From: Pseudactinotalea terrae
GTDB lineage: Bacteria > Actinomycetota > Actinomycetes > Actinomycetales > Beutenbergiaceae
Assembly (NCBI RefSeq): GCF_009733845.1
Contig: NZ_WNXZ01000001.1
Span: forward strand, 558,001-622,000
Length of the DNA: 64,000 nt
Direction of reading: 5' to 3'
The notes under the pieces were generated by a model that worked only from the letters and a program-made list of their open reading frames with translations, did no database searches and was not told the origin of the DNA. The translations under genes were made by a program, and so were the position numbers. Below, in pieces: positions 22,271-59,685 of this stretch (position 1 is the stretch's first letter; each line of letters begins with the position of its first letter).

Positions 22271-22282
22271 CAGGTGCTCCTC

Positions 22283-22972: not shown

Positions 22973-24621
22973 CGTTCCTCCTCCTCGCCCTTGGTCGGGA
23001 ACAGGCCACCCGGCCGTCCCTTGCCGTCCCAGTTGAGGAGGTTGACGCGACCCTTCATGGGGTTCGCGGGCATGTCGTCGGCCGTCTGCCTGTCCTGGAG
23101 CATCCTGAAGTTCTCGACGGCGACCGGTGTGGGCGTCCCGGAACCCTCACCGAACATGTCCTGCTGCCCACCTCCGTACTCGGAGACCGGGCAGTCGGTG
23201 GCGAGCTCCTCGAGCGCGTGCGCCTGCTCGGCGTGCGCGGTCGGGATGACGTAGCGCTCGTCGTACTTCGCGATCGCGAGCAGCCGGAACATCTCGTACA
23301 TGTCGGATCCCGACATGCCGACCGCCTCGGCGATCGCGTCGTCGCCCGCGCCGCCCAGATTGATGTCACGCATGTACGCGCGCATGGCGGCGAGCTTGCG
23401 GAGCACGGAGTCGACCGGCTTGACATCACCCGCCGTGAACAGGTTGGCGAGATAGCCGATCGGGATGCGCAGCGCCTCGATCGCCGCGAACAGGTTGCCC
23501 TTGTCCTCGGCGTCGTGGCCGGTGTCCCGGATGATGTCGACGACAGGCGACAGCGGCGGGATGTACCAGACCATCGGCATCGTGCGGTACTCCGGGTGCA
23601 GCGGCAGCGCGACCTTGTAGGTGTTGATCAGCTTCCACACGGGCGAGCGCTTCGCCGCCTCGACCCAGTCCAGGGGGATGCCGGCAGCCTCGGCTCCCCG
23701 CTGCACCTCGGGATCGTTCGGGTCGAGGAACACCGAGCGCTGCGCCTCGTAGAGGTCGTGGTCGTCCTCCACGGCGGCGGCCTCGAGCACCTTGTCGGCG
23801 TCGTAGAGCATCAGCCCGATGTAGCGGAGCCGGCCCACGCAGGTCTCGGAGCAGACCGTGGGGATGCCGACCTCGATGCGGGGGTAGCAGAACGTGCACT
23901 TCTCGGCCTTGCCGGTCTTGTGGTTGAAGTAGACCTTCTTGTAGGGGCAGCCCGAGATGCACATGCGCCAGCCGCGGCAGCGGTCCTGGTCGACGAGCAC
24001 GATGCCGTCCTCGCTGCGCTTGTAGATCGCGCCCGAAGGGCACGATGCGGCGCAGGAGGGGTTGAGGCAGTGCTCGCAGATGCGCGGCAGGTAGAACATG
24101 AAGGTCTGCTCGAACTCGAGCTTCACCTTCTCGGCGATGTCCTTGAGCATCACGTCGGTGGCGGCGTGATCCTGCGAGCCGGCCAGGTTGTCGTCCCAGT
24201 TCGCCGACCACTCGATCGACATGTTCTCGCCGGAGAGCAGCGACTTCGGGCGAGCCACCGGGAAGGTGTCGGAGGCCGGTGCCCGCACGAGGGTCTCGTA
24301 GTCGTAGGTCCAGGGCTCGTAGTAGTCCTCGATCGAGGGCATCTTCGGGTTGGAGAAGATCGAGAACAGCTTCTTGAAGCGCCCGCCCGCCCGCAGCGCG
24401 AGGCGGCCGTTCGACTTGCGGACCCAGCCGCCCTCCCACTCGTCCTGGTCCTCGTACCGTCGCGGGTAGCCGAGACCGGGTCGGGTCTCGACGTTGTTGA
24501 ACCAGACGTACTCGGTGCCCGCCCGGTTGGTCCAGGCCTGCTTGCAGGTGACCGAGCAGGTGTGGCACCCGATGCACTTGTCGAGGTTCATCACCATCGC
24601 CATCTGAGCCATGACGCGCAT
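22969..24621 (-). CDS. narH: Respiratory nitrate reductase beta subunit (Fe-S)
   Basis: 550 residues. It carries the four iron-sulfur clusters that conduct electrons from NarI to NarG. Cysteine groups are visible in order: CIGCHTCSVTC (residues 16-26), CLNPSCAASCP and CRGWRMCISGCPYK, where Trp replaces one Cys as usual for the 3Fe-4S cluster, and CTFCYPRIE...CSETC. The ATG shares one base with the narG stop (TGATG). An internal ATG at residue 4 (MAQMAMVMNLDK) is an alternative start. Confidence 0.96.
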   Translation of the reverse strand: MRVMAQMAMVMNLDKCIGCHTCSVTCKQAWTNRAGTEYVWFNNVETRPGLGYPRRYEDQDEWEGGWVRKSNGRLALRAGGRFKKLFSIFSNPKMPSIEDYYEPWTYDYETLVRAPASDTFPVARPKSLLSGENMSIEWSANWDDNLAGSQDHAATDVMLKDIAEKVKLEFEQTFMFYLPRICEHCLNPSCAASCPSGAIYKRSEDGIVLVDQDRCRGWRMCISGCPYKKVYFNHKTGKAEKCTFCYPRIEVGIPTVCSETCVGRLRYIGLMLYDADKVLEAAAVEDDHDLYEAQRSVFLDPNDPEVQRGAEAAGIPLDWVEAAKRSPVWKLINTYKVALPLHPEYRTMPMVWYIPPLSPVVDIIRDTGHDAEDKGNLFAAIEALRIPIGYLANLFTAGDVKPVDSVLRKLAAMRAYMRDINLGGAGDDAIAEAVGMSGSDMYEMFRLLAIAKYDERYVIPTAHAEQAHALEELATDCPVSEYGGGQQDMFGEGSGTPTPVAVENFRMLQDRQTADDMPANPMKGRVNLLNWDGKGRPGGLFPTKGEEEER

Positions 24622-27600
24622 CAGTAACGCACCTCCGTCCGACGCTTCCGTATCATCGTCACTTCATCTCGCTGGTTCCCGGTGGGCCCGAGGTAGTTGA
24701 AGGCGAACGCGAGCTGCGCGTAACCGCCGATCAGGTGGCTCGGCTTGAGCATGATGCGGGTGAGCGAGTTGTGGATGCCGCCTCGCTTGCCGGTGGTCTC
24801 GGTGCGCGGCACATCGATCAGCCGGTCCTGCGCGTGGTGCATGTACACGGTGCCCTCGGGCATCCGGTGCGACACGATCGCGCGTGCCGCGACCACGCCG
24901 TTGCGGTTGACGGCCTCGACCCAGTCGTTGTCGCCGATGCCCACCTTCGCGGCGTCCCTGTCCGAGATCCAGATCACCGGGCCGCCGCGCGAGAGCGCCA
25001 GCATGAACAGGTTGTCCTGGTACTCGGAGTGGATCGACCACTTGTTGTGCGGTGTCAGGTACCGGACCGATACCCCGAGCTCGTTGATCTCGCCGACCGG
25101 TGCCTCGCCGAAGATCTCGGTCATGTCCAGCGGTGGTTTGTAGGTCGGTAGTGCCTCGCCCAGCTCGAGCATCCAGTCGTGGTCGAGGAAGAAGTGCTGT
25201 CTTCCGGTGAGGGTGTGCCAGGGCTTCATCCGCTCGGTGTTGATCGTGAAGGGGCTGTATCGGCGCCCCCCGGTCTCCGAGCCCGACCACTCGGGCGAGG
25301 TGATCACCGGGACCGGGGCCGCCTGGGTGTCGGCGAAGGTGATCTGCTTGCCCTCGTGCTCGGCGGCGAGATCGGCCAGCTGGGTACCGGTGCGCTTCTC
25401 GAGCGTGTGGAACCCCTGGGTCGCGAGATGGCCGTTGGTGGTGCCGGACAGCGTCATGATCGTCTCGGCGACCGACATCGCCTTCTCGAGGTTGGGACGA
25501 CCGTCGCTCACACGTCCCGGTGCGCGAACGGTGCCGAGCCGGGTCTTCAGCTGCTCCACCTCCCGCTTGACGTCGAAGGTCACCCCCTTCGTCGTGGCCC
25601 CCAGCTTCTCCATCAGCGGACCGAGCGAGGTGAGCTTGTCCGCGATCGCGCCGTAGTCGCGCTCGACGACGATCAGCCTCGGCATCGTGACCCCAGGCAC
25701 CGGGTCGCACTCGCCTGCACGCCAGTCCTTCACGACGCCGCCCGGGGTCGCCATCGCGTCCGGGCTGTCGTGCATGAGGGGAGCCGCCACCAGGTCCTTG
25801 CGCACCCCGAGGTGCTCCTTCGCGAGGTCCGAGAACGTGGTCGCGAGGGTGCGGAAGATGTCCCAGTCGGTGCGGGTCTCCCACGGCGGCGAGATCGCCG
25901 GGTTGAAGGAGTGGATGAAGGGGTGCATGTCCGTGGTCGAGATGTCGTGCTTCTCGTACCAGGTGGCTGCCGGGAGCACGATGTCGGAGAGCAGCGTCGA
26001 GGACGTCATCCTGAAGTCGAGCGTGACCAGCAGGTCGAGCTTTCCTTCGGGCGCCTTCTCGTGCCACGTGATGTCGCGAGGCCTGCCCTCCGGTGGTGTC
26101 TCCCGGGCGGAGACGGAGTCGTCGGTGCCGAGCAGGTGCTTGAGGAAGTACTCGTTGCCCTTGCCCGAGCTGCCGAACAGGTTCGCGCGCCACATCGTGA
26201 GGATGCGCGGGAAGTTCTCCGGAGAGTCGGGATCCTCGCAGGCGAACGCGAGCGAACCGTCCTGGAGCGACCTCACCACGTACTCGGCGGGCTCCAGTCC
26301 CGCGGCCTCGGCCTCGTCGACGAGGTCGAGCGAGTTGCGGTTGAAGGTCGGGTAGGAGGGCATCCAGCCGAGCCGGCTGGACATCGCGAGCCCGTCGGCG
26401 GTCCCCATGCCGTCGAAGCGGCCGGTTCCGGTAGCCGCCGACAGGCGGCTCATGTCGTAGTTGTCGTACCGGAACTGGTTGGTGTGCAGGTACCAGTAGG
26501 CGGTCTGGATCATCTGCCGTGGCGGCCGGCTCCAGTCGAGCGCCGAGGCCATCTGCGCCCATCCGGTGACCGGACGTGCCTTCTCCTGACCGACGTAGTG
26601 CGCCCAGCCGCCGCCGTTGACGCCCTGACACCCGGTGATGGTGGTGAGCAGGAGCATCGCGCGGTAGATCAGGTCGGAGTGGAACCAGTGGTTCGCGCCG
26701 GCGCCGACGATGATCATCGAACGACCGCGGGAGTCGGCGGCGTTCTGGGCGAACTCGCGCGCGATCCGCGCCACCGCGGCGGCGGGGACGCCCGTGATCG
26801 GCTCCTGCCACGCGGGCGTGTACGGGGCACCTGCGTCGTCGTATCCGGCTGCGTAGCTGCCCTCGAGCCCGGGACGGCCTACGCCGTACTGGGCCAGCAT
26901 GATGTCCATGACGGTGGTGACGAGGTGCTCGCCGACGCGCCGTACCGGTACGCCCCGCGCCAGGGTGCCGCCCGCCGAGTCCGGACCCGCGGCCCGGTCG
27001 AAGCGGGGCAGCTCGACCAGTCGTTGCTCGCTGTCCTGCGACAGCACGGTCAACGCCGGCGTGACGTCGCCGAGCTCAAGGTTCCACTTGCCGAGGCCGT
27101 CGTCGCCGAACCGGTGACCGAGCGAGCCGTTCGGCACGACCACCTCGCCCGACTGGTCGAGCAGGACGGGCTTGAACGCTGCGTTCTCGACATCCTGCCC
27201 CAGGTCCGCGGCGGTGAGGAACTTGCCCGGGCGAGCTGCGCCGTCGGGCATCTCCTCGAGGCGGATCAGATACGGCAGGTCCGTGTACTGCCGGACGTAG
27301 TCGGTGAAGTAGTCGACCTGGTTGTCCACGAAGAACTCGCGGAGCACCACGTGACCCATCGCCATGGCGAGGGCGGCGTCGGTGCCGGGTGCGGCGGGGA
27401 GCCACTCGTCGGCGAACTTGACGTTGTCGGCGTAGTCGGGGGCGACCACGACGACCTTCTGGCCGCGGTACCGGGCCTCGGCCATCCAGTGCGCGTCCGG
27501 CGTGCGGGTCACCGGGACGTTCGAGCCCCACATCATGAGGTAGCTCGCGTCCCACCAGTCGCCGGACTCGGGAACGTCGGTCTGGTCGCCGAAGATCTGC

Positions 27601-28310
27601 GGCGAGGCGACCGGGAGGTCCGCGTACCAGTCGTAGAACGAGAGCATCGCCCCGCCGATCAGCGAGGTCCAGCGGGCACCCGAGGCGTGCGAGACCATCG
27701 ACATGGCGGGGATGGGCGAGAACCCGGCGATGCGGTCGGGGCCCCACCGCCGGATCGTGTGGACGTGGGCGGCCGCGAACATCTCGGAGGCCTCGTCCCA
27801 CGAGCAGCGGACCAGGCCACCCTTGCCGCGTGCCTTCTTGTAGCGGGCGGCGCGCTCCGGGTCTTCGACGATGCTCGCCCAGGCGGCGACGGGATCGCCC
27901 AGGCGGTGACGTGCCTCGCGGAACATCTCGAGCAGCACGCCGCGCACGTACGGGTAGCGGACCCGGGTGGGGGAGTAGGTGTACCAGGAGAACGCGGCGC
28001 CGCGCGGGCAGCCGCGGGGCTCGTAGTCGGGTCGGTCGGCGCCCGCGGTGGGGTAGTCGGTCTGCTGCGACTCCCACGTGATGATGCCGTCCTTGACGTA
28101 CACCTTCCACGAGCAGGAACCGGTGCAGTTGACACCGTGGGTGGAGCGGACCACCTTGTCGTGGGACCACCGGTCCCGGTAGAAGACGTCGCCCTCACGG
28201 CCGCCCTTCTTGTACAGGGTGCGGTGGTCCTCGGAGACCTCCGCCCGCGTGAAGAACTCCCGGCCGCCCATCAGGGCGGCGGTGATCGGGCCGTCGATGC
28301 TGCTGGTCAT
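24621..28310 (-). CDS. narG: Respiratory nitrate reductase alpha subunit (molybdoprotein)
   Basis: 1229 residues, the expected length. It reduces nitrate to nitrite at a Mo-bis-MGD centre on the cytoplasmic side. The N-terminal 4Fe-4S binding pattern (HGVNCTGSCSWKVYV then RGCPRG, His plus three Cys) is present near residues 65-112. Typical NarG stretches include GFSPIPAMSMVSHASG, the long MoCo region with YLMMWGSNVP, and NGGGWAHYVGQEK. ATG 28310 overlaps the narK stop by 4 nt. There is no twin-arginine signal, as expected for NarG. Confidence 0.97.
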   Translation of the reverse strand: MTSSIDGPITAALMGGREFFTRAEVSEDHRTLYKKGGREGDVFYRDRWSHDKVVRSTHGVNCTGSCSWKVYVKDGIITWESQQTDYPTAGADRPDYEPRGCPRGAAFSWYTYSPTRVRYPYVRGVLLEMFREARHRLGDPVAAWASIVEDPERAARYKKARGKGGLVRCSWDEASEMFAAAHVHTIRRWGPDRIAGFSPIPAMSMVSHASGARWTSLIGGAMLSFYDWYADLPVASPQIFGDQTDVPESGDWWDASYLMMWGSNVPVTRTPDAHWMAEARYRGQKVVVVAPDYADNVKFADEWLPAAPGTDAALAMAMGHVVLREFFVDNQVDYFTDYVRQYTDLPYLIRLEEMPDGAARPGKFLTAADLGQDVENAAFKPVLLDQSGEVVVPNGSLGHRFGDDGLGKWNLELGDVTPALTVLSQDSEQRLVELPRFDRAAGPDSAGGTLARGVPVRRVGEHLVTTVMDIMLAQYGVGRPGLEGSYAAGYDDAGAPYTPAWQEPITGVPAAAVARIAREFAQNAADSRGRSMIIVGAGANHWFHSDLIYRAMLLLTTITGCQGVNGGGWAHYVGQEKARPVTGWAQMASALDWSRPPRQMIQTAYWYLHTNQFRYDNYDMSRLSAATGTGRFDGMGTADGLAMSSRLGWMPSYPTFNRNSLDLVDEAEAAGLEPAEYVVRSLQDGSLAFACEDPDSPENFPRILTMWRANLFGSSGKGNEYFLKHLLGTDDSVSARETPPEGRPRDITWHEKAPEGKLDLLVTLDFRMTSSTLLSDIVLPAATWYEKHDISTTDMHPFIHSFNPAISPPWETRTDWDIFRTLATTFSDLAKEHLGVRKDLVAAPLMHDSPDAMATPGGVVKDWRAGECDPVPGVTMPRLIVVERDYGAIADKLTSLGPLMEKLGATTKGVTFDVKREVEQLKTRLGTVRAPGRVSDGRPNLEKAMSVAETIMTLSGTTNGHLATQGFHTLEKRTGTQLADLAAEHEGKQITFADTQAAPVPVITSPEWSGSETGGRRYSPFTINTERMKPWHTLTGRQHFFLDHDWMLELGEALPTYKPPLDMTEIFGEAPVGEINELGVSVRYLTPHNKWSIHSEYQDNLFMLALSRGGPVIWISDRDAAKVGIGDNDWVEAVNRNGVVAARAIVSHRMPEGTVYMHHAQDRLIDVPRTETTGKRGGIHNSLTRIMLKPSHLIGGYAQLAFAFNYLGPTGNQRDEVTMIRKRRTEVRY

Positions 28311-29548
28311 GCCACAGCCTCCTTCTGCTTGTGCGCGAGGCGCCTGACCGAGGTGAGCGTGAGCCCGAGGACGAGTGCTGCGGTGCCGGCGAGGAGCCAC
28401 AGCCCGATCGCGTAGGACTGCATCTGTCCGTAGGCCCATCCCATGATCAACGGCGGCACGAAGCCACCGAGGCCGCCGGCTGCTCCGACGATGCCCGTGA
28501 CGCCGCCGACCCTGGCCGGCTCGGTGACCTGGGCGATGAGCGCGAACACGGCGCCGCTGCCGGCGCCGAGGGCCGCCGCCATCAGCAGGAAGTCGACGGT
28601 GCCCAGCAGCAGCAGCGGTGGCTCCGCCGAGGCGATGGCGGCGCACAGCGCCGTCACGGCGAACACCGCGCTGAGCACCGGGATCGAACCGACCTTGTCG
28701 GAGAGCCACCCCCCGACCGGGCGCATGACGACGGCGATCACCACGAAGCCGGCCATGCGGTTGGAGGCGTCGGCGGGCGTGAGATCGTGCGCGTTGATCA
28801 GGTAGGTCGGCAGATACACCGAGAACGCCACGTATCCGCCGAAAGCGACGGCGTAGAGCAACGACGCCTGCCACGTGACCGGGAGCCTGAGGTTGCCGAG
28901 GAGCCTGCCGACGAAGCCGGGGGGCGGCGGCGTGCGGCCTGGTGCGTCGCGCAGCACCACCCAGGACAGCACGGCGTAGATCGCCAGTGCTGCTGCGGTG
29001 ATGAGGAAGGGCGTGGTCGCGCCGAGACCGTCGTAGAGCTTGACCGTGGTCAGCGCGCTGATCGCCGTGCCGCCCATGCCGGCACCGAAGATGCCGATCG
29101 CCAGGCCGCGCTGCTGCGGCGGGAACCACGCGTTCACGAACGGGACCCCCACCGCGAAGGCGGTCCCGCCGATGCCGAGGAAGAACCCGCCCACGAGGAT
29201 CAGGGTGTAGGAGTCGAGGGCGAAGAACGCGAGGAACAGGATCGGCAGGACCGTCAGCACCGAGACGGCCGGGAACATGACGCGGCCGCCGTAGCGGTCC
29301 GTGAGCGCGCCGACGACGACACGCCCGAGGCTCCCCACCACGACCGGCACCGCGACCAGCAGAGCGACGTCGCTCTGGGTGAGGTCGGCCAGCAACCCCT
29401 CCTGTCGGAACTTCGGACCGAGCGGGCTGAGCAGCGCCCAGGCCCAGAAGTTGACCACGAAGCCCAGCGTGGCTACGCCGAGCATCAGCCATCGTTGGCC
29501 GTGCGGTAGAGCGGTCGTGGGAGCGGGGGTGCCAGGATCCTGCGCCAT
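28307..29548 (-). CDS. narK: Nitrate/nitrite transporter, MFS
   Basis: 413 residues with about 12 membrane helices. NarK-family motifs are visible: GxxxDRxGGR as GALTDRYGGR after helix 2, and glycine-rich signature segments GIFGAGMGGTAIS and IVGAAGGLGGFVPPLIMG. It brings nitrate in and/or lets nitrite out for the reductase encoded downstream. First gene of the leftward nar operon; the start is ATG 29548 with GAAAGAGG as ribosome site. Confidence 0.93.
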   Translation of the reverse strand: MAQDPGTPAPTTALPHGQRWLMLGVATLGFVVNFWAWALLSPLGPKFRQEGLLADLTQSDVALLVAVPVVVGSLGRVVVGALTDRYGGRVMFPAVSVLTVLPILFLAFFALDSYTLILVGGFFLGIGGTAFAVGVPFVNAWFPPQQRGLAIGIFGAGMGGTAISALTTVKLYDGLGATTPFLITAAALAIYAVLSWVVLRDAPGRTPPPPGFVGRLLGNLRLPVTWQASLLYAVAFGGYVAFSVYLPTYLINAHDLTPADASNRMAGFVVIAVVMRPVGGWLSDKVGSIPVLSAVFAVTALCAAIASAEPPLLLLGTVDFLLMAAALGAGSGAVFALIAQVTEPARVGGVTGIVGAAGGLGGFVPPLIMGWAYGQMQSYAIGLWLLAGTAALVLGLTLTSVRRLAHKQKEAVA

Positions 29549-29790: not shown

Positions 29791-30921
29791 ATGAAGGCGG
29801 GTCGTACTGCTAGGTATGCGGCAACGATGCTGGCATGCGGAGCCCTGTGGGTGGCTGGCCTCTCGCCGTCGTCCGCAGCGATGCAGGACGAACCCGCGTG
29901 GGACACGGTCGCGGCCGAGGACATGCCGGAGACCTCCCCGGTGATCACTGTCCCTGCGGACGCGGTCTGGCAATTCACGATCGGCCAGGTCTGGTCGCAG
30001 GGTCCGAAGCCGGTCTCCATCGAGGAGTCGTGGACCCACCCACTTCCCAGCGCCCGCCTGCTGTCACAGTTCGGGAACAGGGGGATCATCCCGGGAGTCA
30101 CCTCGAGCGCGTTCCACAACGGCATCGACCTCGCCGCGACTCTGGGCACGCAGATCCTTGCCGCGGGGTCGGGTGTGGTCATCTACGCGGGTCATGGCAA
30201 CAAGACGCTGGGGCTCTCTGGATGGGTCGTCGTGATCCAGCACCTGGACGGAACCAGCACCGCCTACAACCACATGAGCGAGTCCGGTGTCCTCGTGGCC
30301 GTCGGCGACGACGTGACCACGGGCGACGTCATCGCTCTCGTCGGCAGCGAGGGCAGGTCGACCGGCCCGCACCTTCACTTCTCCGCATGGGTCGACGGTC
30401 GGGCGGTCAATCCCGTGAACTATCTGCAGGAGCGGGGCGTCTCCGTGCCCGGCGGTCGCGCCTCGACCGATGAGTCCACCCAGGGAGACCCGAACGACCC
30501 GCACCAGTGGGACTGGACCGGGGCCGAGCAGGGCGACGGACCTCCCATCGAGGAGCCCTACGGCGACCCTGAGCCCGACCCTGTGGAGCAGACCCCGTCG
30601 GACCCTGAGCCAGAGCCGACACCGGCTCCTGAGCCAGAGCCGACACCGGCTCCTGAGCCAGAGCCGACACCGGAGCCGTCGACGGAGCCGACACCGACGC
30701 CCTCGGTCGAGCCGGAACCCACCGAAGAGCCCACGCAGGACCCCACCGAAGAGCCTTCTGACCCGGACCCGACCGATGGCCCATCCGACGATCCCGAGCC
30801 GACCCCCACCGACGAGCCGACCGGGACCCCGACCGCCCCGGGGTCGCCGTCCGAGCCCGAGCACACCTCCGAGCCGGAGCCTGGGCCCACGTCGACAGCC
30901 ACGGACGAGCCCACCGACTAG
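29791..30921 (+). CDS. Secreted M23 (LytM) peptidase with Pro/Glu-rich tail
   Basis: 376 residues. A signal peptide (residues 1-30, ending SPSSAA) is followed by an M23 domain at about 85-210 with zinc ligands His and Asp in HNGIDLAA (His109, Asp113) and HLHFS near residue 193. The tail (about 230-376) is an acidic Pro-Glu-Thr-Ser linker built on PEPEPTPA repeats, a typical wall-spanning segment. It probably cuts peptidoglycan cross-bridges or acts as a wall-binding factor. No LPXTG or membrane anchor is present. ATG 29791 is used; TTG 29788 is adjacent. Confidence 0.88.
   Translation: MKAGRTARYAATMLACGALWVAGLSPSSAAMQDEPAWDTVAAEDMPETSPVITVPADAVWQFTIGQVWSQGPKPVSIEESWTHPLPSARLLSQFGNRGIIPGVTSSAFHNGIDLAATLGTQILAAGSGVVIYAGHGNKTLGLSGWVVVIQHLDGTSTAYNHMSESGVLVAVGDDVTTGDVIALVGSEGRSTGPHLHFSAWVDGRAVNPVNYLQERGVSVPGGRASTDESTQGDPNDPHQWDWTGAEQGDGPPIEEPYGDPEPDPVEQTPSDPEPEPTPAPEPEPTPAPEPEPTPEPSTEPTPTPSVEPEPTEEPTQDPTEEPSDPDPTDGPSDDPEPTPTDEPTGTPTAPGSPSEPEHTSEPEPGPTSTATDEPTD
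30604..30673 (+). repeat. 24-bp tandem repeat in the peptidase tail
   Basis: A 24-bp unit beginning CCTGAGCCAGAGCCGACACC repeats 2.9 times without mismatch and encodes PEPEPTPA. Perfect copies suggest recent expansion by slippage or recombination. Confidence 0.85.
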
Positions 30922-31701: not shown

Positions 31702-33315
31702 TCAGTCGGCTGTGCGATCGTGCGCGGTCACCAACGCTCGTCCCTGATCTGGCACCTGCTCGTCATCGGCTGGATCGAACGCGACACGTCCGGTCTCGAA
31801 CCGCGCCGCCAGGGCACCGCGCAGCCGCTCGCGACGTGTCAGGCGGCCGTCGTGGCCCGGGCTCGCTGGCGTGATGGGATCCGGGGTCACCGCCAGGAGG
31901 GCGCGTTCGGCGGCGGCGACCGGCTGGTGCTGCTCGAGGTAGCCACCCTCGGGCGTCCGCACGATCCGGCCGGTCTCGTGCCCGTGCAGCAGCACCTCAC
32001 GGTCCTTGCGCTGCAGCCCGAGACAGATCCGGCGCGTGATATCGAACGCGACCGGTGGGCCGACGATCAGCGCCACCTGCAGTGCGGTCACGATCAGCTC
32101 GAAGCTGATGCCGAACGTCGTCGAGGCGATGTCGGTGCTCCCGGCAGCCCACAGGATGCCGTAGAAGAGCATGCCTGCCACACCGATCCCGGTGCGGACC
32201 GGGACGTTCCTCGGCCGCTCGAGCACGTGGTGCTCGAGGGTGTCGCGGGTGATCCATGACTCGAGGAACGGGTAGACGATCACCACGGCGAAGTAGATGC
32301 CGATGACGGCGAGCGGGGCGAGGATGGCGAAGGTCCACGTCCAGCCGAACCACTCGGTCTCCCAGCCTGCTGGGACGAGCCGGAGAGCGCCGTCGAGGAA
32401 CCCCATGTACCAGTCGGGTTGGCTGCCGCCGCCGACGTCGCCGGCAGCGGTAGGGCCATAGGCCCAGATGGGGCTGATCGTTGAGGTCGCGCCGAGCAGC
32501 ACCAGCACACCGCTCGTGATCGCTGTCAGTCCGGCGGCGCGCAGTGCGGCGTCGGGCCAGAGGCGGAGGCCAGGTGTTGCCTGGATCGGGGCACCCGTGC
32601 TCGCCGGGCTCGGTGACCCGTGCCGGTATCCGAGCACGCCGCGGACCACGAGCAGGGCCACGACCAGGATCGGGGCGATCACGACGTGGACCGGGTAGAG
32701 GTTCTCGATGATCTCGCCAGGGAACCTGCTGCCGAACATCAGGGTCACGAGCCACGTGCCGATCACCGGGATGCCGAGCATCACGCCTTCGACGATCCGC
32801 AGCCCGGTGCCCGAGAGCATGTCGTCGGGGAGGGCGTAGCCGCTCCAGCCGGCCAGGAGGACCGCGAAGAACGCGAGCATCAGCAGCAGCCAGCCCGCAC
32901 GCCGGGGGCGGCGGAACCCTCCGGTGAAGAACAGGGCCAGGATCTGCATCATCATCGTCGCCGGCAGGAGAAGTCCTGCCCAGTGATGGGTCTGGCGGAC
33001 CAGCATCCCGCCGGCCTGCTCGAAGGAGATCTCCATCGTGGAGGCGAAGGCCTTGCTGACCTCCGTCCCGACGAGCGGACCATATGGCCCGTCATACGTG
33101 ACCAGCTCGCTGGACGGGGTGTAGGTGAATGTCAGCAGGATGCCGGTGATCGTGAGGACGACGATCGAGGCGAACGCCATGACGCCGAACATGTTCGCCC
33201 AGTGCAGGTGGACCCGTTGCCGCCTGAGCGCCCGGACGAGTCGAGGGCCGGCCTGCGCGACGAGCACCGCAGCGCGCCGGCGTGCGGTAGCGGGGTGGCG
33301 GCGGTCAACGGGCAC
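31702..33315 (-). CDS. Orphan QcrB-like cytochrome b, lacking one heme ligand pair
   Basis: 537 residues, about nine membrane helices, clearly homologous to the QcrB at 57976-59685 and sharing its C-terminal GLQRKDREVLLHGHETG. The Qo-site motif is kept as PDWY (QPDWYMGFLDGALRL). In helix B, His110 is kept but the second ligand position is Gln124 (MMMQIL; QcrB has His135). In helix D, His210 is kept but the second is Arg225 (LLVVRGVL; QcrB has His237). The two losses belong to the same heme (bH type), so only one heme should bind. No qcrA or qcrC is nearby. It overlaps ndh by 11 nt. Confidence 0.9.
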   Translation of the reverse strand: MPVDRRHPATARRRAAVLVAQAGPRLVRALRRQRVHLHWANMFGVMAFASIVVLTITGILLTFTYTPSSELVTYDGPYGPLVGTEVSKAFASTMEISFEQAGGMLVRQTHHWAGLLLPATMMMQILALFFTGGFRRPRRAGWLLLMLAFFAVLLAGWSGYALPDDMLSGTGLRIVEGVMLGIPVIGTWLVTLMFGSRFPGEIIENLYPVHVVIAPILVVALLVVRGVLGYRHGSPSPASTGAPIQATPGLRLWPDAALRAAGLTAITSGVLVLLGATSTISPIWAYGPTAAGDVGGGSQPDWYMGFLDGALRLVPAGWETEWFGWTWTFAILAPLAVIGIYFAVVIVYPFLESWITRDTLEHHVLERPRNVPVRTGIGVAGMLFYGILWAAGSTDIASTTFGISFELIVTALQVALIVGPPVAFDITRRICLGLQRKDREVLLHGHETGRIVRTPEGGYLEQHQPVAAAERALLAVTPDPITPASPGHDGRLTRRERLRGALAARFETGRVAFDPADDEQVPDQGRALVTAHDRTAD

Positions 33316-34699
33316 GGTCGGCTCCGATCAGCTCACGCGCACGTTCCTCGGCGTCTGGCCCTGTTCCTTCCCGGCGGGGCCTCAGCACGGCCGGATCGCC
33401 TGCCGCCAGGAACGCGGTCCGCGGCACCTGCACGCCGGGCAGCGCGACGATGTCCCGTCCGAAGAGCGCTGCGCTGAGCCAGACGAGCAGGACGCGCAAC
33501 TTCCGCTCCCAGGTGGGGATGGCCAGCACGTGGTAGCCGCGGTGCATCAACCATGCGAGCGGGCCCTTGATGACCAGCCGCCGGTACTGGAAGATGCCGT
33601 GCCCCATGCCGAGCGTCGCAATGGTGCCGAGACTGTCGTGGCGGTACGGACGCTCCTTCTTGCCGCGCAGGTGAGCCACGATGTTGGCCGCCAGAAGCTT
33701 GCCCTGCCTGACGGCGTGCTGAGCGTTGGGGACGGTCAGGGCACCGGGAGCGGCCGCGGTCAGGTCAGGGACAGCGGCGTTGTCGCCGGCGGCCCAGGCA
33801 TCCGGCACGGGTGCCTCGTCGGTGCCGACCCGGAGGTCGGCGCGGACGCGCACCAGGCCACGGTCGTCGACCGGCAGATCGGTGTGCTGGGCGACCACGG
33901 GGTTGTGCCCGTTGCCGACAGCCCAGATGAGGAGGTTCGTGTCGAACGACTCCCCGGTGGACAGCACGATGTGCCCGCCCCGCGCGGAGGTGATCTGCGT
34001 CTCCGTGTGGACGTGGGCCCCTCGCCGCTCGAGGTGGCGTACGACCCAGCGACCGGGATCATCGGTCACCTCGGGCAGGATCCGAGGCGATGCCTCGACC
34101 AGGTGGAAGGAGAGCTCCGCCAGGCTGATCTCGGGGTAGGAACGCAGCAGCGAGGTCGCCAGCGAGAGCAGCTCGCCGAACGCTTCGACCCCGGTGAAGC
34201 CGCCACCGACGACCGTCACGGTGAGCAGCCGCGAACGCTCCGGTCCCGGCGGGAGGCCGGCAGCCTCGTCGAACGCGGTCAGCAGACCGTCGCGGATGGC
34301 GACGGCCTCCTCGACGTGCTTGAGGCCGATCGCGTGATCGGCGACCCCAGGGATCGACAACCTGCGGGTCACGGCCCCCGCCGTGACCACGAGGAGGTCG
34401 TACTTGATGGCTTGCGGGGCGCCGTGGGCGGTCTGGACCATGGCCCTCCGATGGGCGTGATCCACCTCGATCACGTGGCCGGCGACGAGGCGTGTGCTCC
34501 GCAGGTGACTTCGCAGGGAGACGACGACGTGTCGAGCCTCGACCGACCCAGCCGTGACCTCGGGAAGGAACGGTTGGTAGGTCATGTAGCCGCGCGGGTC
34601 GACGACGGTGACCTCCGCCTCGCCCGGACGCAGCCGCTTCTCGAGCCGCCAGGCTGTGTAGAAGCCTGCGTACCCGCCGCCGATGATCAATATCCGCAT
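33305..34699 (-). CDS. ndh: Type II NADH dehydrogenase (NAD(P)/FAD-dependent oxidoreductase)
   Basis: 464 residues. The N-terminal FAD motif is ILIIGGGYAGFYTAWRLEK (residues 3-21), the NADH motif is VTVVGGGFTGVEAFGELL (about 165-182), and the FAD-closing motif is AWAAGDNAAVPD (about 300-311). Two amphipathic C-terminal helices suit attachment to the membrane. It would move electrons from NADH to menaquinone without pumping protons. The ATG has a strong ribosome site (GGAGGA). The stop side overlaps the start of the QcrB-like gene, so the products are made together. Confidence 0.92.
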   Translation of the reverse strand: MRILIIGGGYAGFYTAWRLEKRLRPGEAEVTVVDPRGYMTYQPFLPEVTAGSVEARHVVVSLRSHLRSTRLVAGHVIEVDHAHRRAMVQTAHGAPQAIKYDLLVVTAGAVTRRLSIPGVADHAIGLKHVEEAVAIRDGLLTAFDEAAGLPPGPERSRLLTVTVVGGGFTGVEAFGELLSLATSLLRSYPEISLAELSFHLVEASPRILPEVTDDPGRWVVRHLERRGAHVHTETQITSARGGHIVLSTGESFDTNLLIWAVGNGHNPVVAQHTDLPVDDRGLVRVRADLRVGTDEAPVPDAWAAGDNAAVPDLTAAAPGALTVPNAQHAVRQGKLLAANIVAHLRGKKERPYRHDSLGTIATLGMGHGIFQYRRLVIKGPLAWLMHRGYHVLAIPTWERKLRVLLVWLSAALFGRDIVALPGVQVPRTAFLAAGDPAVLRPRREGTGPDAEERARELIGADRAR

Positions 34700-34727: not shown

Positions 34728-34769
34728 GACCGTGGAGCGGGAGCAGACGTGACGTGGCGCTCGTCACGT
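34728..34769 (-). promoter_or_regulatory. Hairpin and weak ECF41-like promoter ahead of ndh
   Basis: An inverted repeat with 8-bp arms (ACGTGACG 34747-34754 and CGTCACGT 34762-34769, 7-nt loop) lies between the flavoprotein stop and ndh. Read leftward, its inner arm gives CGTCACG, then 16 nt, then GGTC (34731-34728), a degenerate match to the two stronger sites upstream. It could equally be a terminator or protein site; no T-run follows. Confidence 0.35.
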
Positions 34770-34785: not shown

Positions 34786-36516
34786 CTACTCGACCAGCTT
34801 GCCGTCGGCAGAGACGTCGACCATGAGCTCGGCGATCTCGCCCGGCACCGGTGGGATCTCTTCGTGCACGACGCCGGCGGTGGGCGACCAGACGAGGTTC
34901 GTCTGCAGAGCGGGGTCCAGGTCGGGGTAGTCGCTGCGGTTGTGGCAGCCGCGGCTCTCGCGGCGTTCGAGCGCCGCCTCGAGCGTGGCGCGGGCGGCGA
35001 TCAGGGATGCTCTGAGGTCGAAGGCGTGCGCGAGATCACCGAAGCCTGCGATGTCCGGATGGACCCCGACGTCACCCGACCGCTCGCTGATCTCGTGCAG
35101 CTCGCGCAAACCGGTCAGGAGCCCGGTCTCGTCGCGGGAGACGCCGGCGTGCGCGGTCATCGTGTTGCGGACCGCGCGCTGCAGAGCGCGGACGTTCTCG
35201 GGCCCGTCGGCGGCGAGCAGCGCGCTGATCTCCCGCCGCGCCTCCGCCTCGGCGTCGCGTGAGCGGTGCTGCGCCTCCAGCCCCGCCGAGTACTCCGCCG
35301 CGGCCCGTGCGACGATCCGCCCGAACACCAGCAGCTCGATCAGCGAGTTTCCCCCGAGCCGATTGGCGCCGTGCAGACCGGAGGAGGCCTCACCCACCGC
35401 ATACAGGCCCGCCACGTCGGTGCTGTGGTCCTCCGGACGGACCCACACCCCGCCCATGGAGTAGTGCGCGGTGGGAGCGATCTCGATCGGCTCGGCAGTG
35501 ATGTCGAGCATCTGCAGCTCCAGCAGCGTCTGGTAGACGCGCGGCAGCCGCGTCATGATCGTCTCGCGTGGCAGGTGCGAGACGTCGAGCCAGACGCCGC
35601 CCCTCTCGGTGCCTCGGCCCTCCTTGATCTCGGTGTAGGCGGCGAGCGCGACGCGGTCCCTCGTGGACAGCTCCATCCGCTTCGGGTCGTAGCGCTCCAT
35701 GAACCGCTCGCCAAGTGCGTTTCGCAGGATGCCGCCCTCGCCGCGCGCCGCCTCGGACACCAGCGTGCCGGCGGCGTTCTCGGGCTCGAGGAGACCGGAC
35801 GGGTGGAACTGCACCAGCTCGGGGTCGCGCAAGCGGGCGCCGGCCTCGACGGCGAGCCGGAAGGAGTCCCCGGTGTTCTCGTCACGCCGTGAGGACGTGC
35901 GGCGCCAGATGCGGGTGTGGCCGCCGGCGGCGAGGATCACCGCGTCCGCGTGGATCAGATGCGGCGTCCCGTCGGTCAGGTCGAACCCGTATGCACCGAA
36001 CACGGCACCGTCGCGCACGAGGATGCGGGTGATGTAGATCGAGTCCAGGATCGGGATGTCGAGCTGAGCCGCACGGTTCACCAAGGTCCGCTGGATCTCC
36101 AGGCCGGTGTAGTCGCCGGCGAACGCGGTACGGCGATAGGTGTGCGCTCCGAAGAAGCGCTGGGAGATGCGTCCGTCGTCCTCACGCGCGAAGGCCATGC
36201 CGTACCGCTCCAGGTCGGCGATGCCCTGGGCGGCGCCCCTGGCGACGATCTCGACGGTGTGCGGGTTGGCCAGACCGTAGCTCTCCTTGATGGTGTCGGC
36301 AGCGTGCTGCTGCCAAGAATCCTCGGCATCCATGGTGCCGAGAGCGGCGTTGATGCCGCCCGCCGCCAGGGACGTGTGGGCGTCGATGCGGGGCCGTTTG
36401 CCGACCGTCAGGACGCTGACGCCCTGCTCGGCGAGCTCGATCGCGGCGCGCAGGCCGGATCCGCCGGTGCCGATCACGAGCACGGTGGTCGACATGCGCC
36501 GTTCGGTGATGTTCAT
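34786..36516 (-). CDS. Orphan succinate dehydrogenase/fumarate reductase flavoprotein-like subunit
   Basis: 576 residues. The FAD motif is VLVIGTGGSGLRAAIELA; His47 in DAHTSLAAGG is at the position of the covalent FAD-histidine of SdhA/FrdA. Active-site segments are present: QFHPSGL, SEAARGEGGIL, APTAHYSMGG, NRLGGNSL and the C-terminal ESRGCHNRSDYP. No iron-sulfur (SdhB) or anchor gene is near, so its electron partner is unclear. L-aspartate oxidase is related, but no quinolinate genes are beside it. The ATG follows GGAG. First enzyme gene after the sigma factor. Confidence 0.85.
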   Translation of the reverse strand: MNITERRMSTTVLVIGTGGSGLRAAIELAEQGVSVLTVGKRPRIDAHTSLAAGGINAALGTMDAEDSWQQHAADTIKESYGLANPHTVEIVARGAAQGIADLERYGMAFAREDDGRISQRFFGAHTYRRTAFAGDYTGLEIQRTLVNRAAQLDIPILDSIYITRILVRDGAVFGAYGFDLTDGTPHLIHADAVILAAGGHTRIWRRTSSRRDENTGDSFRLAVEAGARLRDPELVQFHPSGLLEPENAAGTLVSEAARGEGGILRNALGERFMERYDPKRMELSTRDRVALAAYTEIKEGRGTERGGVWLDVSHLPRETIMTRLPRVYQTLLELQMLDITAEPIEIAPTAHYSMGGVWVRPEDHSTDVAGLYAVGEASSGLHGANRLGGNSLIELLVFGRIVARAAAEYSAGLEAQHRSRDAEAEARREISALLAADGPENVRALQRAVRNTMTAHAGVSRDETGLLTGLRELHEISERSGDVGVHPDIAGFGDLAHAFDLRASLIAARATLEAALERRESRGCHNRSDYPDLDPALQTNLVWSPTAGVVHEEIPPVPGEIAELMVDVSADGKLVE

Positions 36517-36620: not shown

Positions 36621-36647
36621 GACAACGCAGCCCCGCGGAACGTGACA
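36621..36647 (-). promoter_or_regulatory. Candidate ECF41-type promoter of the flavoprotein gene
   Basis: Read leftward: TGTCACG (36647-36641), exactly 16 nt, TGTC (36624-36621). The published ECF41 motif is TGTCACA in the -35 and CGTC in the -10 region. The -35 is identical to that before the sigma gene and the spacing is the same. Transcription would start near 36613, about 97 nt ahead of ATG 36516. Confidence 0.55.
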
Positions 36648-36705: not shown

Positions 36706-37578
36706 TCACCACGCTCCGGCGCTGGCGAGCTTGTCCGGGTTGCGGACGATGTAGATGCCGTCGATCGCGCCCGCATCGGTACTGATCGTGGCGATGCCCA
36801 CCACCTCGGTCCCCTGCTTGATCAGGAGGCACGCCTCGCCGTTCGCGTCGATGATCTCCAGGGTCGTGCTCGGGCCGAGATGGCGCAGGGCTCCGCCCAG
36901 GAAGCGGGTGACATGGTCGCGGCCGGTCACCGGACGTCTGGCGGCGGACACCTTGCCCCCGCCGTCGGAGATGGTCACGACGTCCTCGGCCAGGAGCTGC
37001 TCGAGGTCGTGGAGGTTCCCGGTGCGGGATGCCGACTGGAAGGCCTCGAGCAGGCGCGACATCTCCTCGCGCTGCGCGGGTGCCCCTCGCCGCCCTGCCA
37101 GGTGCTTGCGGGCGCGGTGCGCCAGCTGCCGGGCGTTGGCCTCGCTGGTGTGGAGAACCTCCGCGATCTCGCGGAACGGGTAGTCGAAGGCTTCGCGCAG
37201 GACGTAGACAGCACGCTCGGCGGGTGGGAGGCGCTCCATCAGGGTCAGCATCGCGACGCTGAGCGCCTCGGCGCGTTCCGCCCCGAGGTACGGATCGTCG
37301 TCACCGGTCGGGACGGGCTCGGGCAGCCACGGCCCGACGTAGTGCTCCCGGCGCGCCCGAGCTGAGGTCGCGACATTGATGGCCAACCGGGTGATGGTGG
37401 TGACCAGGAACGCCTCCGGATTGAGCACCACCGACCGGTCGGTGGCCTGCCAGCGCAGCCACGCGTCCTGAACCACGTCCTCGGCGTCGGCCACCGTGCC
37501 GAGGATGCGGTAGGCGATACCGAACAACCGTCGCCGCTTGTCCTCGAACACGTCGGCCGCCTCGCTCAGATGTGCCAT
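36706..37578 (-). CDS. sigJ: ECF sigma factor with SnoaL-like C-terminal domain (ECF41/SigJ type)
   Basis: 290 residues. Region 2 (about 9-75) has AYRILGTVADAEDVVQDAWLRW; region 4 (about 115-165) has LPPAERAVYVLREAFDYPFREIAEVLHTS; a SnoaL-like domain follows (about 175-285). The ECF41 hallmarks DGGGKV in the extension and NPDKL at the end are both present. In this group the extension controls activity and takes the place of a separate anti-sigma factor. It lies upstream of and in line with the flavoprotein, ndh and cytochrome b genes. The ATG at 37578 has only a weak ribosome site. Confidence 0.93.
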   Translation of the reverse strand: MAHLSEAADVFEDKRRRLFGIAYRILGTVADAEDVVQDAWLRWQATDRSVVLNPEAFLVTTITRLAINVATSARARREHYVGPWLPEPVPTGDDDPYLGAERAEALSVAMLTLMERLPPAERAVYVLREAFDYPFREIAEVLHTSEANARQLAHRARKHLAGRRGAPAQREEMSRLLEAFQSASRTGNLHDLEQLLAEDVVTISDGGGKVSAARRPVTGRDHVTRFLGGALRHLGPSTTLEIIDANGEACLLIKQGTEVVGIATISTDAGAIDGIYIVRNPDKLASAGAW

Positions 37579-37783: not shown

Positions 37784-37825
37784 GACGAAGCTGCGGCACG
37801 TTTCGTGACATCGCCGGTCACGAAA
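37784..37825 (-). promoter_or_regulatory. Candidate ECF41-type autoregulatory promoter with inverted repeat
   Basis: Read leftward: TGTCACG (37810-37804), 16 nt, CGTC (37787-37784), matching the published ECF41 motif apart from the last -35 base. Its -35 is one arm of a perfect inverted repeat, TTTCGTGAC (37801-37809) and GTCACGAAA (37817-37825). The other arm could give a weaker rightward -35 (GGTCACG) toward the gene at 38001. The leader to the sigma gene would be about 200 nt. The rest of the 37579-38000 gap holds one small open frame and nothing else I can support. Confidence 0.6.
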
Positions 37826-57975: not shown

Positions 57976-59685
57976 TCAGTGTGATGTTCCGCTGGTGCTG
58001 GTCAGCTCGCCGACGCGAGACGATTCGCCGGCGGGGAGCTGGTCGTGCTCGCCGTGGCTGTGCGCGGTCGCAAGCTCGGCGGGCGTGACCGGCTCGACGC
58101 GATCCTCGTAGAAGAAGCGGGAGAGCGTGGTGCGGATCCCGTCGAGGCGGCCACCAGGGCGGCGGACGCCGTTCGCGTCCTCTGCCGGAGCGAGCTGCAA
58201 CGGGCGGTACACGTGGTGGCCGACCCTGACCCAGCGCTCGAACTCGTCGAGCGGCTGGTGCACCTCGTAGAACCGGCCGTCGGCGGTCCTGCGGACGGTG
58301 CCGGTCTCGTGGCCGTGCAGCACGACCTCCCGGTCCTTGCGCTGCAGGGCCAGACAGATCCGCTTGGTGATGACGAACACCACCACCGGGAGCACGAAGA
58401 ACAGCACCCGCAGCACCCAGGTGATCGCGTTCAGCGACAGCCCGAAATGCGTCGCCACCAGGTCGTTCGCACCGGCGACCAGCAGCACGATGAAGACGCT
58501 GAGGAACGCGGCGCCGAGCGAGGTGCGCGTGGCCGCGTTGCGTGGCCGGTCCAGCACGTGGTGCTCGCCTGTGTCCTTGGTGACCGCCGCCTCGATGAAC
58601 GGGTATGCGCCCAGGAACGTGAACAGCAGGCCCGGTATCACGACCGCCGGGATCAGGACGTTCAGGGAGAGCGTCCAGCCGAGGATCACGAACTCCGGCT
58701 GACCCGGCATCAGGCGCAGCGATCCCTCGAGGAAGAGCATGTACCAGTCGGGCTGAGCGCCGGCCGAGACCAGCGCCGGGTCGAACGGGCCGTAGTTCCA
58801 CACCGAGTTGATGCTCATGAAGGCACCCATGAGCGCCAGCACACCGAAGACGATGAAGAAGAAGCCGCCGGCCTTCGCCATGTACACGGGGAAGAGCGGG
58901 TAGCCGACCACGTTCTTGTCGGTCCGACCAGGTCCGGGGTACTGGGTGTGCTTCTGCCAGAACACGAGGAACAGGTGCAGGGCGACGAGACCGAGGATCA
59001 GCGCGGGGATCAGCAGGATGTGCAGCGTGAACATCCGTGGGATCACGTCGGTGCCGGGGAACTCGCCTCCGAAGACCATGTAGGACATGTAGGAGCCGAT
59101 GATCGGAAGCGACTTGACCACACCGTCGGTGATCCGCAGGCCGTTGCCCGAGAGCACGTCGTCGGGCAGCGAGTAGCCGGTCAGACCAGCGAGCAGGCTG
59201 AGGATCAGCATGGAGAAGCCGACGAGGTAGTTCAGCTCGCGGGGCTTGCGGAACGCACCCGTGAAGAAGATGCGCAGCATGTGGACCACCATCGAGCCCA
59301 CGAACATCAGCGCTGCCCAGTGGTGGATCTGCCGCATCAGCAGGCCGCCGCGCACGTGGAACGACATGTTGAGCGTCGAGGCAAAGGCCTCCGACATCTC
59401 CACGCCCTGCATCGTGACCGGCAGCGCATCCTCCGGATAGTGCACCTCGGTCATCGAGGGCACGAAGAACATCGTGAGGAAGAAGCCCGAGAGCAGCAGC
59501 ACGATGAAGCTGTACAGCGCGATCTCGCCCAGCAGGAAGGACCAGTGGTCGGGGAACAGCTTGCGGGACAGCCCCTTGATCATCGAGGCCGCGCCGACAC
59601 GTTGGTCGAGGTAGTCGACAGTCCCGGAGACGGGCTTGGGGACGATCGGCTCGGTGATCGCTGCGGATGTGGTCGTGTCAGTCAT
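57976..59685 (-). CDS. qcrB: Cytochrome bc1 complex cytochrome b subunit
   Basis: 569 residues. Menaquinol oxidation subunit with two b hemes. The four ligands are present: His121 and His135 in helix B (HHWAALMFVGSMVVH) and His222 and His237 in helix D (HILLIPALILGLVALH). The Qo motif is PDWY (QPDWYMLFLEGSLRLMPG). The long C-terminal cytoplasmic extension (LALQRKDREVVLHGHETG) is usual in actinobacteria. The start overlaps the qcrA stop by 4 nt. It is the intact reference for the orphan paralogue at 31702-33315. Confidence 0.97.
   Translation of the reverse strand: MTDTTTSAAITEPIVPKPVSGTVDYLDQRVGAASMIKGLSRKLFPDHWSFLLGEIALYSFIVLLLSGFFLTMFFVPSMTEVHYPEDALPVTMQGVEMSEAFASTLNMSFHVRGGLLMRQIHHWAALMFVGSMVVHMLRIFFTGAFRKPRELNYLVGFSMLILSLLAGLTGYSLPDDVLSGNGLRITDGVVKSLPIIGSYMSYMVFGGEFPGTDVIPRMFTLHILLIPALILGLVALHLFLVFWQKHTQYPGPGRTDKNVVGYPLFPVYMAKAGGFFFIVFGVLALMGAFMSINSVWNYGPFDPALVSAGAQPDWYMLFLEGSLRLMPGQPEFVILGWTLSLNVLIPAVVIPGLLFTFLGAYPFIEAAVTKDTGEHHVLDRPRNAATRTSLGAAFLSVFIVLLVAGANDLVATHFGLSLNAITWVLRVLFFVLPVVVFVITKRICLALQRKDREVVLHGHETGTVRRTADGRFYEVHQPLDEFERWVRVGHHVYRPLQLAPAEDANGVRRPGGRLDGIRTTLSRFFYEDRVEPVTPAELATAHSHGEHDQLPAGESSRVGELTSTSGTSH

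Follow-up and report, generated by a model that had tools for sequence, protein, structure and literature searches.

The cytochrome b of complex III, and with it the Q-cycle, is characterised by a stack of two b hemes. The closest described relatives of the protein examined here are the QcrB subunits of actinobacterial bcc-aa3 supercomplexes (structures 7q21, 6adq and 9gy6). With these it shares its fold over almost the whole chain (Z 36.8–37.8, 36–38% identity), the ligands of heme bL, the QPDWY motif and the C-terminal extension. It differs from them by the loss of the bH ligands, of an Arg on the bH side, of a helix-C Gly and of the His in the KHTQ stretch, by the absence of qcrC and qcrA alongside, and by its ECF41-type promoter sites.

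QcrB paralogues have also been described in Streptomyces coelicolor, where QcrB2 and QcrB3 (SCO7236) are encoded away from the qcr-cta locus, as is the gene described here; QcrB3 is 55% identical to QcrB and co-purified with bcc-aa3 components and with Nar1 (PMC7931247). The authors state that an alternative supercomplex containing QcrB3 was not unequivocally shown, and tagged QcrB2 gave no shift (PMC7931247). For the R. capsulatus cytochrome bc1, one study reports that a double bH knockout reduces bL with no connection to the Qi site, and that electrons pass from bL to bL on a catalytically relevant timescale in an engineered dimer, one half of which carries H212N while the Qo site of the other is inactive (PMC4330944). 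The H212N protein resembles ours in having Qo and bL without bH; however, it is a laboratory mutant of one ligand, whereas the clade described below is natural and both of its ligands and the surrounding pocket are gone.

ECF41 sigma factors are marked by a WLPEP motif and use a promoter composed of TGTCACA, 16 ± 1 bp and CGTC, and their targets encode carboxymuconolactone decarboxylases, which the authors tie to oxidative stress, oxidoreductases and epimerases (PMC3426412). The promoter motif recurs at the genes described here, and the oxidoreductase class of targets, which PMC3426412 delimits by domains among which are Pyr_redox_2 and FAD_binding_2, covers protein types like the NDH-2 and FrdA-like products of our locus. 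In contrast, the word ‘cytochrome’ is absent from the main text of that paper, and the gene of interest encodes a cytochrome b. Among the matches listed from the open-access literature, as titles and the beginnings of abstracts, no natural one-heme QcrB paralogue was described.

The orphan gene and its neighbours

We analysed a 64,000-nucleotide stretch of the Pseudactinotalea terrae genome (the window). On its minus strand, an orphan gene (31702..33315; 537 aa, GTG start, Pfam PF13631/PF00033) encodes a QcrB paralogue that, judged by its sequence, would carry one heme, bL. Upstream on the same strand lie three further genes. The first encodes an NDH-2-like flavoprotein (33305..34699), which has the Pyr_redox_2 fold and resembles solved NDH-2 structures, and the last 11 nt of its gene are overlapped by the start of the orphan. 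The second encodes a lone flavoprotein of the fumarate reductase/succinate dehydrogenase type (FrdA-like, 34786..36516; PF00890 and PF02910), whose closest match among solved structures is SdhA 7d6v; neither an FrdB nor an anchor gene is seen next to it, and it is 77–86% identical across families. The third encodes an ECF41/SigJ-type sigma factor (36706..37578) that scores above the cut-offs of PRK09636 (SigJ) and TIGR02957 and has both the C-terminal extension and WLPEP.

Downstream of the orphan, at a distance of about 2 kb, narI, narJ, narH, narG and a NarK-type transporter occupy 21542–29548, and 29791–30921 encodes what by eye is an M23-type peptidase-like protein with a long, repetitive Pro/Glu/Thr-rich tail. 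A general link to nar was considered, given the adjacent narK-narGHJI genes and the co-purification of QcrB3 with Nar1, and is ruled out: narG, narH, narI and narK had no match at any other listed orphan locus (flanks mostly 6–10 kb, some shorter at contig ends). The orphan itself had no match in viral contigs.

A genome search returned two cytochromes b of the QcrB family, the orphan and the QcrB of the usual bcc cluster, some 26 kb from the orphan and also within the window (QcrB at 57976..59685, minus strand, with all four His). Neither a Rieske protein nor a cytochrome c was among the six products scanned around the orphan, in keeping with the sequence-only reading, which had noted their absence. 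The genome holds four Rieske-domain matches: the QcrA encoded in the canonical cluster (inside the window, some 27 kb from the orphan), a solitary, small Tat-type Rieske protein elsewhere in the genome (L196, 284–982), which is a possible but unspecific partner, and two others.

An AlphaFold2 model of the orphan, built on 69 sequences, has a mean pLDDT of 87.1, and its best fold matches are the QcrB subunits of mycobacterial and corynebacterial bcc-aa3 supercomplexes (Z 37.8). With Foldseek and VIA-align, the matches listed are all cytochromes b, which does not exclude other folds. Membership in the QcrB family is mixed. The orphan has the fold, a score above the cut-off of the family model NF050120 and the Qo motif P(D/E)WY, and lacks the four His, the n-side His of the KHTQ stretch and the accompanying qcrA/qcrC. 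The NF050120 cut-off is itself barely passed (501.1 bits against 500); 12 clade members scored 470–572 bits, and three of them fell under the cut-off, at 470–492. Because the window’s orphan scores above it, the NCBI model names this protein ‘cytochrome bc1 complex cytochrome b subunit’, and the gene is likely miscounted as a second bc1 complex.

Ligand columns, clade and selection

In an alignment with the window’s canonical QcrB, the orphan’s H110, Q124, H210 and R225 stand at QcrB H121, H135, H222 and H237, exactly as the sequence-only reading had it. Following the bc1 and b6f structures, we take the first helix-B His (110) to lie on the p side and to pair with 210 as the ligands of bL, and 124 and 225 to be the n-side pair of bH. 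Under this pairing rule, the earlier inference that both replaced residues are partners of a single heme, bH by position, is upheld. The codons of the kept bL ligands, H110 in helix B (32986..32988) and H210 in helix D (32686..32688), lie on the minus strand, as do all codons given here; both residues are found in 69/69 listed clade rows and 142/142 rows of the tree set. At the helix-B bH position (Q124, 32944..32946), Gln occupies 68 of the 69 listed clade rows, and at the helix-D bH position (R225, 32641..32643) Arg occupies 67; in all 63 canonical rows, both positions are His.

The surroundings of the inner heme have changed as well. The helix-C Gly that packs on the bH side (QcrB G156; Gly in 63/63 canonical rows) is Leu in 68 of the 69 listed clade rows (L145, 32881..32883). 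The Arg three residues past the helix-B bH ligand (QcrB R138, comparable to bovine R100) is present in none of the 69, and 65 of them have V, T, A or S instead. The n-side His of the KHTQ stretch (QcrB H246), to which we assign a role in quinone reduction only by analogy with bovine H201, goes from 63/63 canonical rows to 0/69 listed clade rows. On the outer side, the bL His pair and the bL Arg are found in all 142 tree rows, and R107, H110, H210, G58, G159 and QPDWY are invariant across the listed clade. The motif QPDWY, which the sequence-only reading had called intact, indeed is so at residues 299–303 (PDWY, residues 300–303, at 32407..32418), with Q299, P300, D301, W302 and Y303 each in 69/69 listed clade rows. 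A coordinated loss of the bH ligands is supported by these alignments, since three further inner-side residues (the Arg on the bH side, the Gly of helix C and the n-side His) have disappeared with them and the bL set and Qo motif are invariant.

A heme might still occupy the inner site if residues such as R225, Q124 or a Met served as its ligands. The near-invariance of Q124 and R225 speaks for this, since it indicates that these residues do something. However, with Leu in place of the helix-C Gly and the bH-side Arg absent, the bH pocket looks closed. The His residues within helices A–D of the orphan are limited to 110 and 111 (helix B, 111 beside the bL ligand), 210 (helix D) and 232 (the end of helix D), so that, by position and not by distance, no other His is placed to replace the bH ligands; other His residues at the ligand positions, which would have counted against the sequence-only reading, were not seen. 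H38, before helix A, is no new ligand, because 59 of the 63 canonical rows have it too. We consider inner heme binding through other ligands very improbable.

The orphan belongs to a clade of at least 69 rows from many genera (SH-aLRT 100). The genome collection was scanned with an alignment of helices B–D and the best 80 loci were kept, so the clade is probably larger than counted; 17 of these loci fell outside the orphan group and were set aside before neighbours were counted. The tree contains 142 cytochromes b, leaves out the four ligand columns, and comes from a fast search in which support was given by SH-aLRT alone, without bootstrapping. Five duplicate rows (two in the clade) were dropped beforehand, and the 69 rows comprise 61 scan loci, seven other rows and the window. 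Writing the helix-B pair before the helix-D pair, the listed clade rows are HQ/HR in 66 cases and never retain four His. The remaining three are Herbiconiux ginsengi (L082), which has kept the helix-B His beside a helix-D Arg (HH/HR), and two Microlunatus members (L105 and L121) with W or L at the R225 position (HQ/HW and HQ/HL).

Other losses lie outside the clade. Eight rows form a sister clade (joint support with the orphans 99), in which the helix-D bH His is lost, QPDWY has become GALWY/F and HHW has become HRW or HSW; by its sequence, this is a second kind of altered cytochrome b. On the tree, a QcrB-like protein of Actinoplanes solisilvae (L114) is a separate double loss (HQ/HS), and Streptomyces dioscori (L129) is a separate loss of the helix-D ligand (HH/HR); every other named cytochrome b from Streptomyces in the tree is HH/HH. 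The helix-D bH His is gone in all 79 tree rows with any loss, and the helix-B His in 73 of these and never alone. The helix-D ligand therefore seems to be lost first. Parsimony requires three changes for the helix-D His and five for the helix-B His.

The distribution of the orphan is patchy. Among the matches listed, the nearest relative of the window’s orphan is from Myceligenerans (72%), and it groups within Promicromonospora, Isoptericola, Antribacter and Myceligenerans. One of the three genomes of its genus carries it. Across 24 genomes of the family, it is the sole orphan-type match above threshold; one other genome matches the sister type. This sparse presence, together with the placement in the Promicromonospora group, fits horizontal transfer. 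Among 396 genomes of the order, seven further carriers were identified. The resulting 8/396 is a lower bound, because scoring was confined to three candidates in each genome, and the ligands were not checked at places that lacked a locus (all at most 47% identical to the orphan). In a draw of 396 genomes from the phylum, two stand out at 266–269 bits, the next at 190. One Promicromonospora genome (L078) has, besides its orphan, two canonical-like QcrB matches (740 and 727 bits) lying no more than about 4 kb apart.

Such patchiness (one in three genus genomes, at least eight in 396) could be read as the sign of a decaying, functionless duplicate of QcrB. We give this almost no credence: the clade has at least 69 members across families, with the same replacements, open frames and a recurrent promoter site, and dN/dS is 0.17–0.37 in the best 25 of the closest orphan pairs (pairs more than 80% identical). 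The orphan is under purifying selection, and on the same ratios the pseudogene hypothesis is rejected. The earlier claim of a coordinated change, as opposed to random decay, holds in the light of this selection, of the lost pocket residues and of HQ/HR recurring across the clade.

We compared the two halves of the protein using canonical columns, defined as those conserved in at least 93% of 63 QcrB rows and scored as kept if found in at least 80% of orphan rows. The orphans retain 47 of 56 such columns in the outer half and 13 of 35 in the inner half (Fisher p 9e-6). This p value is descriptive only, because the mid-helix borders were set from the model with knowledge of the ligand pattern and the columns are not independent. 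The C-terminal domain retains 12 of 13 columns. Judged by its sequence, the orphan appears to be a functioning protein from which the inner redox site has been lost.

The orphan might instead have no redox role and, without a functional heme, act as a QcrB-like scaffold or inhibitor subunit, either binding quinone or filling a position in the supercomplex. The sister clade lends weight to this, as it keeps 13/13 of the C-terminal invariants without the helix-D bH His or the Qo motif, which indicates that protein contacts can outlive catalysis. Yet the bL His pair, the Arg and QPDWY are each present in 69/69 listed orphans and would be needless in a scaffold, although the bL set is also kept in the eight sister rows. 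A non-redox role appears improbable.

Gene context and ECF41-type promoter sites

Context was counted over 62 loci, 61 from the best-80 scan and the window, with neighbour clusters taken from a simple gene caller and named by eye from translations, not scanned. An NDH-2 relative lies directly upstream of the orphan in 28/62 listed loci (27/61 without the window), and the orphan is a solo gene in the other 34. The sequence-only reading had proposed co-translation with NDH-2; the 11-nt overlap in the window agrees with this, but as a defining link it fails, and with adjacency at under half of the listed loci the NDH-2 link is optional. A missing NDH-2 neighbour is not a missing NDH-2, because 16 of the solo-gene genomes, among 24 checked, have a relative elsewhere (44–66% identical). 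FrdA-like relatives are found in six of the 62 listed loci (the window and five of the 61 others, at 77–86% identity), and in two of the 28 NDH-2 loci, the window and an Antribacter locus, the FrdA-like gene precedes NDH-2. An obligatory partnership with NDH-2 or FrdA is ruled out by these counts. At an uncultured Nocardioides locus (L103, 2498–4369), an FrdA-like gene is split over two frames, through either misassembly or disruption of the gene.

SigJ-type factors were called in 18/64 listed loci. Homologues sharing the context and keeping four His would have counted against the sequence-only reading. One was found, in Streptomyces spinosisporus (L132), where a QcrB paralogue with NDH-2, FrdA-like and SigJ-type neighbours retains all four; with 729 bits on the QcrB model, this paralogue resembles canonical QcrB, and it lies outside the clade. 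The NDH-2/FrdA/SigJ context is consequently not diagnostic of the one-heme state. L129 and L132 form a pair of Streptomyces QcrB paralogues, one HH/HR and the other HH/HH.

The orphan has a further link, new here and beyond its adjacency to NDH-2, in predicted ECF41-type promoter sites. Upstream of the orphan operon, at least 10 of the 11 motif bases are matched in 29/62 listed loci and at least nine in 49/62; the remaining 13 reach only 7–8, like the control. Among 3000 random control windows, drawn from the same loci with true promoters included, 2% reach at least 10/11, 11% reach 9 and more than half reach 8. Sites of 10–11/11 precede 19 of the 34 solo genes. At three loci (L170, L171 and L184), the genes that directly follow ECF41-type promoters encode small SnoaL-like proteins and a functionally uncharacterised membrane protein.

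We found 28 matches to the exact pattern TGTCACA-N17-GTC in six genomes (2–7 per genome), against one for the reversed pattern. By eye from translations, without scanning, the genes next after these sites are mostly ECF41 factors or genes commonly paired with them: five ECF41 factors, four carboxymuconolactone decarboxylases, six of NmrA/epimerase type, three hydrolases, two SnoaL-like genes, three orphans and, at the last five sites, an aldo/keto reductase, an acetyltransferase, two membrane proteins and, in one case, no gene. The orphan stands directly behind an exact site in three genomes (G166, G370 and G379); in G043 it is separated from the site by a SnoaL-like gene, and in G299 by genes for a membrane protein, a SnoaL-like protein and NDH-2. 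In five of the six genomes, the row of genes that follows an exact site thus includes the orphan, the exception being the window’s own.

In the window itself, the candidates before NDH-2 and the FrdA-like gene are weak alone. On the minus strand, CGTCACG-N16-GGTC (34728..34754, 8/11) lies 55 nt before the ATG of NDH-2, and in most of the relatives that have NDH-2 the site falls at −56 to −74; TGTCACG-N16-TGTC (36621..36647, 9/11) precedes the FrdA-like gene, and TGTCACG-N16-CGTC (37784..37810, 10/11) lies 232 nt upstream of the sigma factor. Three of the six loose matches in the 64 kb lie before these three genes, and letter shuffles gave 0–4. The exact motif was absent from the window and from the orphan operon of this genome. 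The promoter expected of an ECF41 regulon member is present for the clade, with the window itself reaching only 8 (NDH-2) and 9 (FrdA) of 11. As predicted from the motif, the orphan or its operon is often behind an ECF41-type site; its induction by ECF41 is inferred, in the absence of transcript data.

Possible routes for the electron on the inferred heme bL

We propose that the orphan is a natural ‘half’ cytochrome b, bL-only and Qo-only and under ECF41 control, that takes part in a hybrid bcc complex, a proposal that we rate as about as likely as not in the absence of heme, redox or interaction data. By sequence, the p-side (outer) half, which contains the Qo motif and both bL His, is kept under purifying selection, and the n-side (inner) half, with the bH site and the KHTQ His, is dismantled in a coordinated manner; the protein would accordingly be expected to bind heme bL only. 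ECF41 stress signalling would raise the orphan, in nearly half of the listed loci together with NDH-2, which would feed menaquinol without pumping protons. Menaquinol would then be oxidised at the outer site of the orphan. Without an exit through bH, the electron on bL would have to leave sideways, by a route that is unproved. In the route that we favour, the orphan would pair with canonical QcrB and canonical QcrA/QcrC, electrons would pass from its bL to the partner’s bL, and the coupling of the Q-cycle would be lowered under stress.

The hybrid is favoured because of the bL–bL precedent, the co-purification of QcrB3, the presence of canonical QcrB in 12/12 orphan carriers examined and the lack, at E 1e-8, of any qcrA or qcrC match at the other listed orphan loci (flanks mostly 6–10 kb). 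We also count in its favour that the C-terminal domain is kept while the inner half is not. The co-occurrence with QcrB is weak evidence, since to our knowledge nearly all aerobic actinobacteria have canonical QcrB. Against the overall proposal, we count the 34 solo loci, the window sites of only 8–10/11, the missing exact motif at the window operon, the 13 listed loci at control level, the reservations of the authors on QcrB3 and the three deviating members, L082, L105 and L121. Granting one heme, our preference for the hybrid over a stand-alone protein remains tentative, with a confidence that at best approaches even.

A stand-alone, one-heme quinol dehydrogenase or sensor would let menaquinol reduce bL without a Rieske protein and without a bcc partnership, passing electrons to an unidentified periplasmic acceptor (a small protein, a metal or oxygen) or reporting on the quinol pool. 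The same lack of qcrA/qcrC at the other loci fits this scheme too, as do the solo genes, 19 of them with strong ECF41-type sites, and the solitary Tat-type Rieske in the window’s genome; this last point is not specific, because many of 18 genomes contain Rieske matches that score about as high. The oxidative-stress connection of the ECF41-linked carboxymuconolactone decarboxylases is also consistent with it (PMC3426412). However, the kept C-terminal domain and QPDWY region are what is expected if QcrA and QcrC still dock, and the neighbour clusters, named by eye from a simple gene caller, contained no conspicuous candidate for an acceptor. In addition, the bH-knockout bc1 reduces bL without a connection to the Qi site (PMC4330944). 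A stand-alone function is possible, if unlikely. Either way, quinol oxidation or sensing by the orphan is an inference.

The hybrid reading can be carried further, to a stress sigma factor that installs a bH-less cytochrome b, which would form asymmetric bcc dimers with QcrB, bridged from bL to bL, as an adjustable valve on the Q-cycle. We regard this as a conjecture that is probably wrong in at least some part; if it were true, nature would be using a trick that has so far been engineered. What stands, on sequence evidence and with function inferred, is broader than the sequence-only reading first stated: a natural clade, putatively bL-only and keeping Qo, much of it behind ECF41-type sites. 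A natural clade in which the inner heme site has been dropped and the outer one kept under selection would make the Qo/bL half directly testable on its own. ECF41 factors gain a candidate respiratory target, and the spare cytochrome b in many soil actinobacteria, which seems to be turned on by a stress sigma factor, suggests that respiratory electrons may be handled in a manner not yet recognised.
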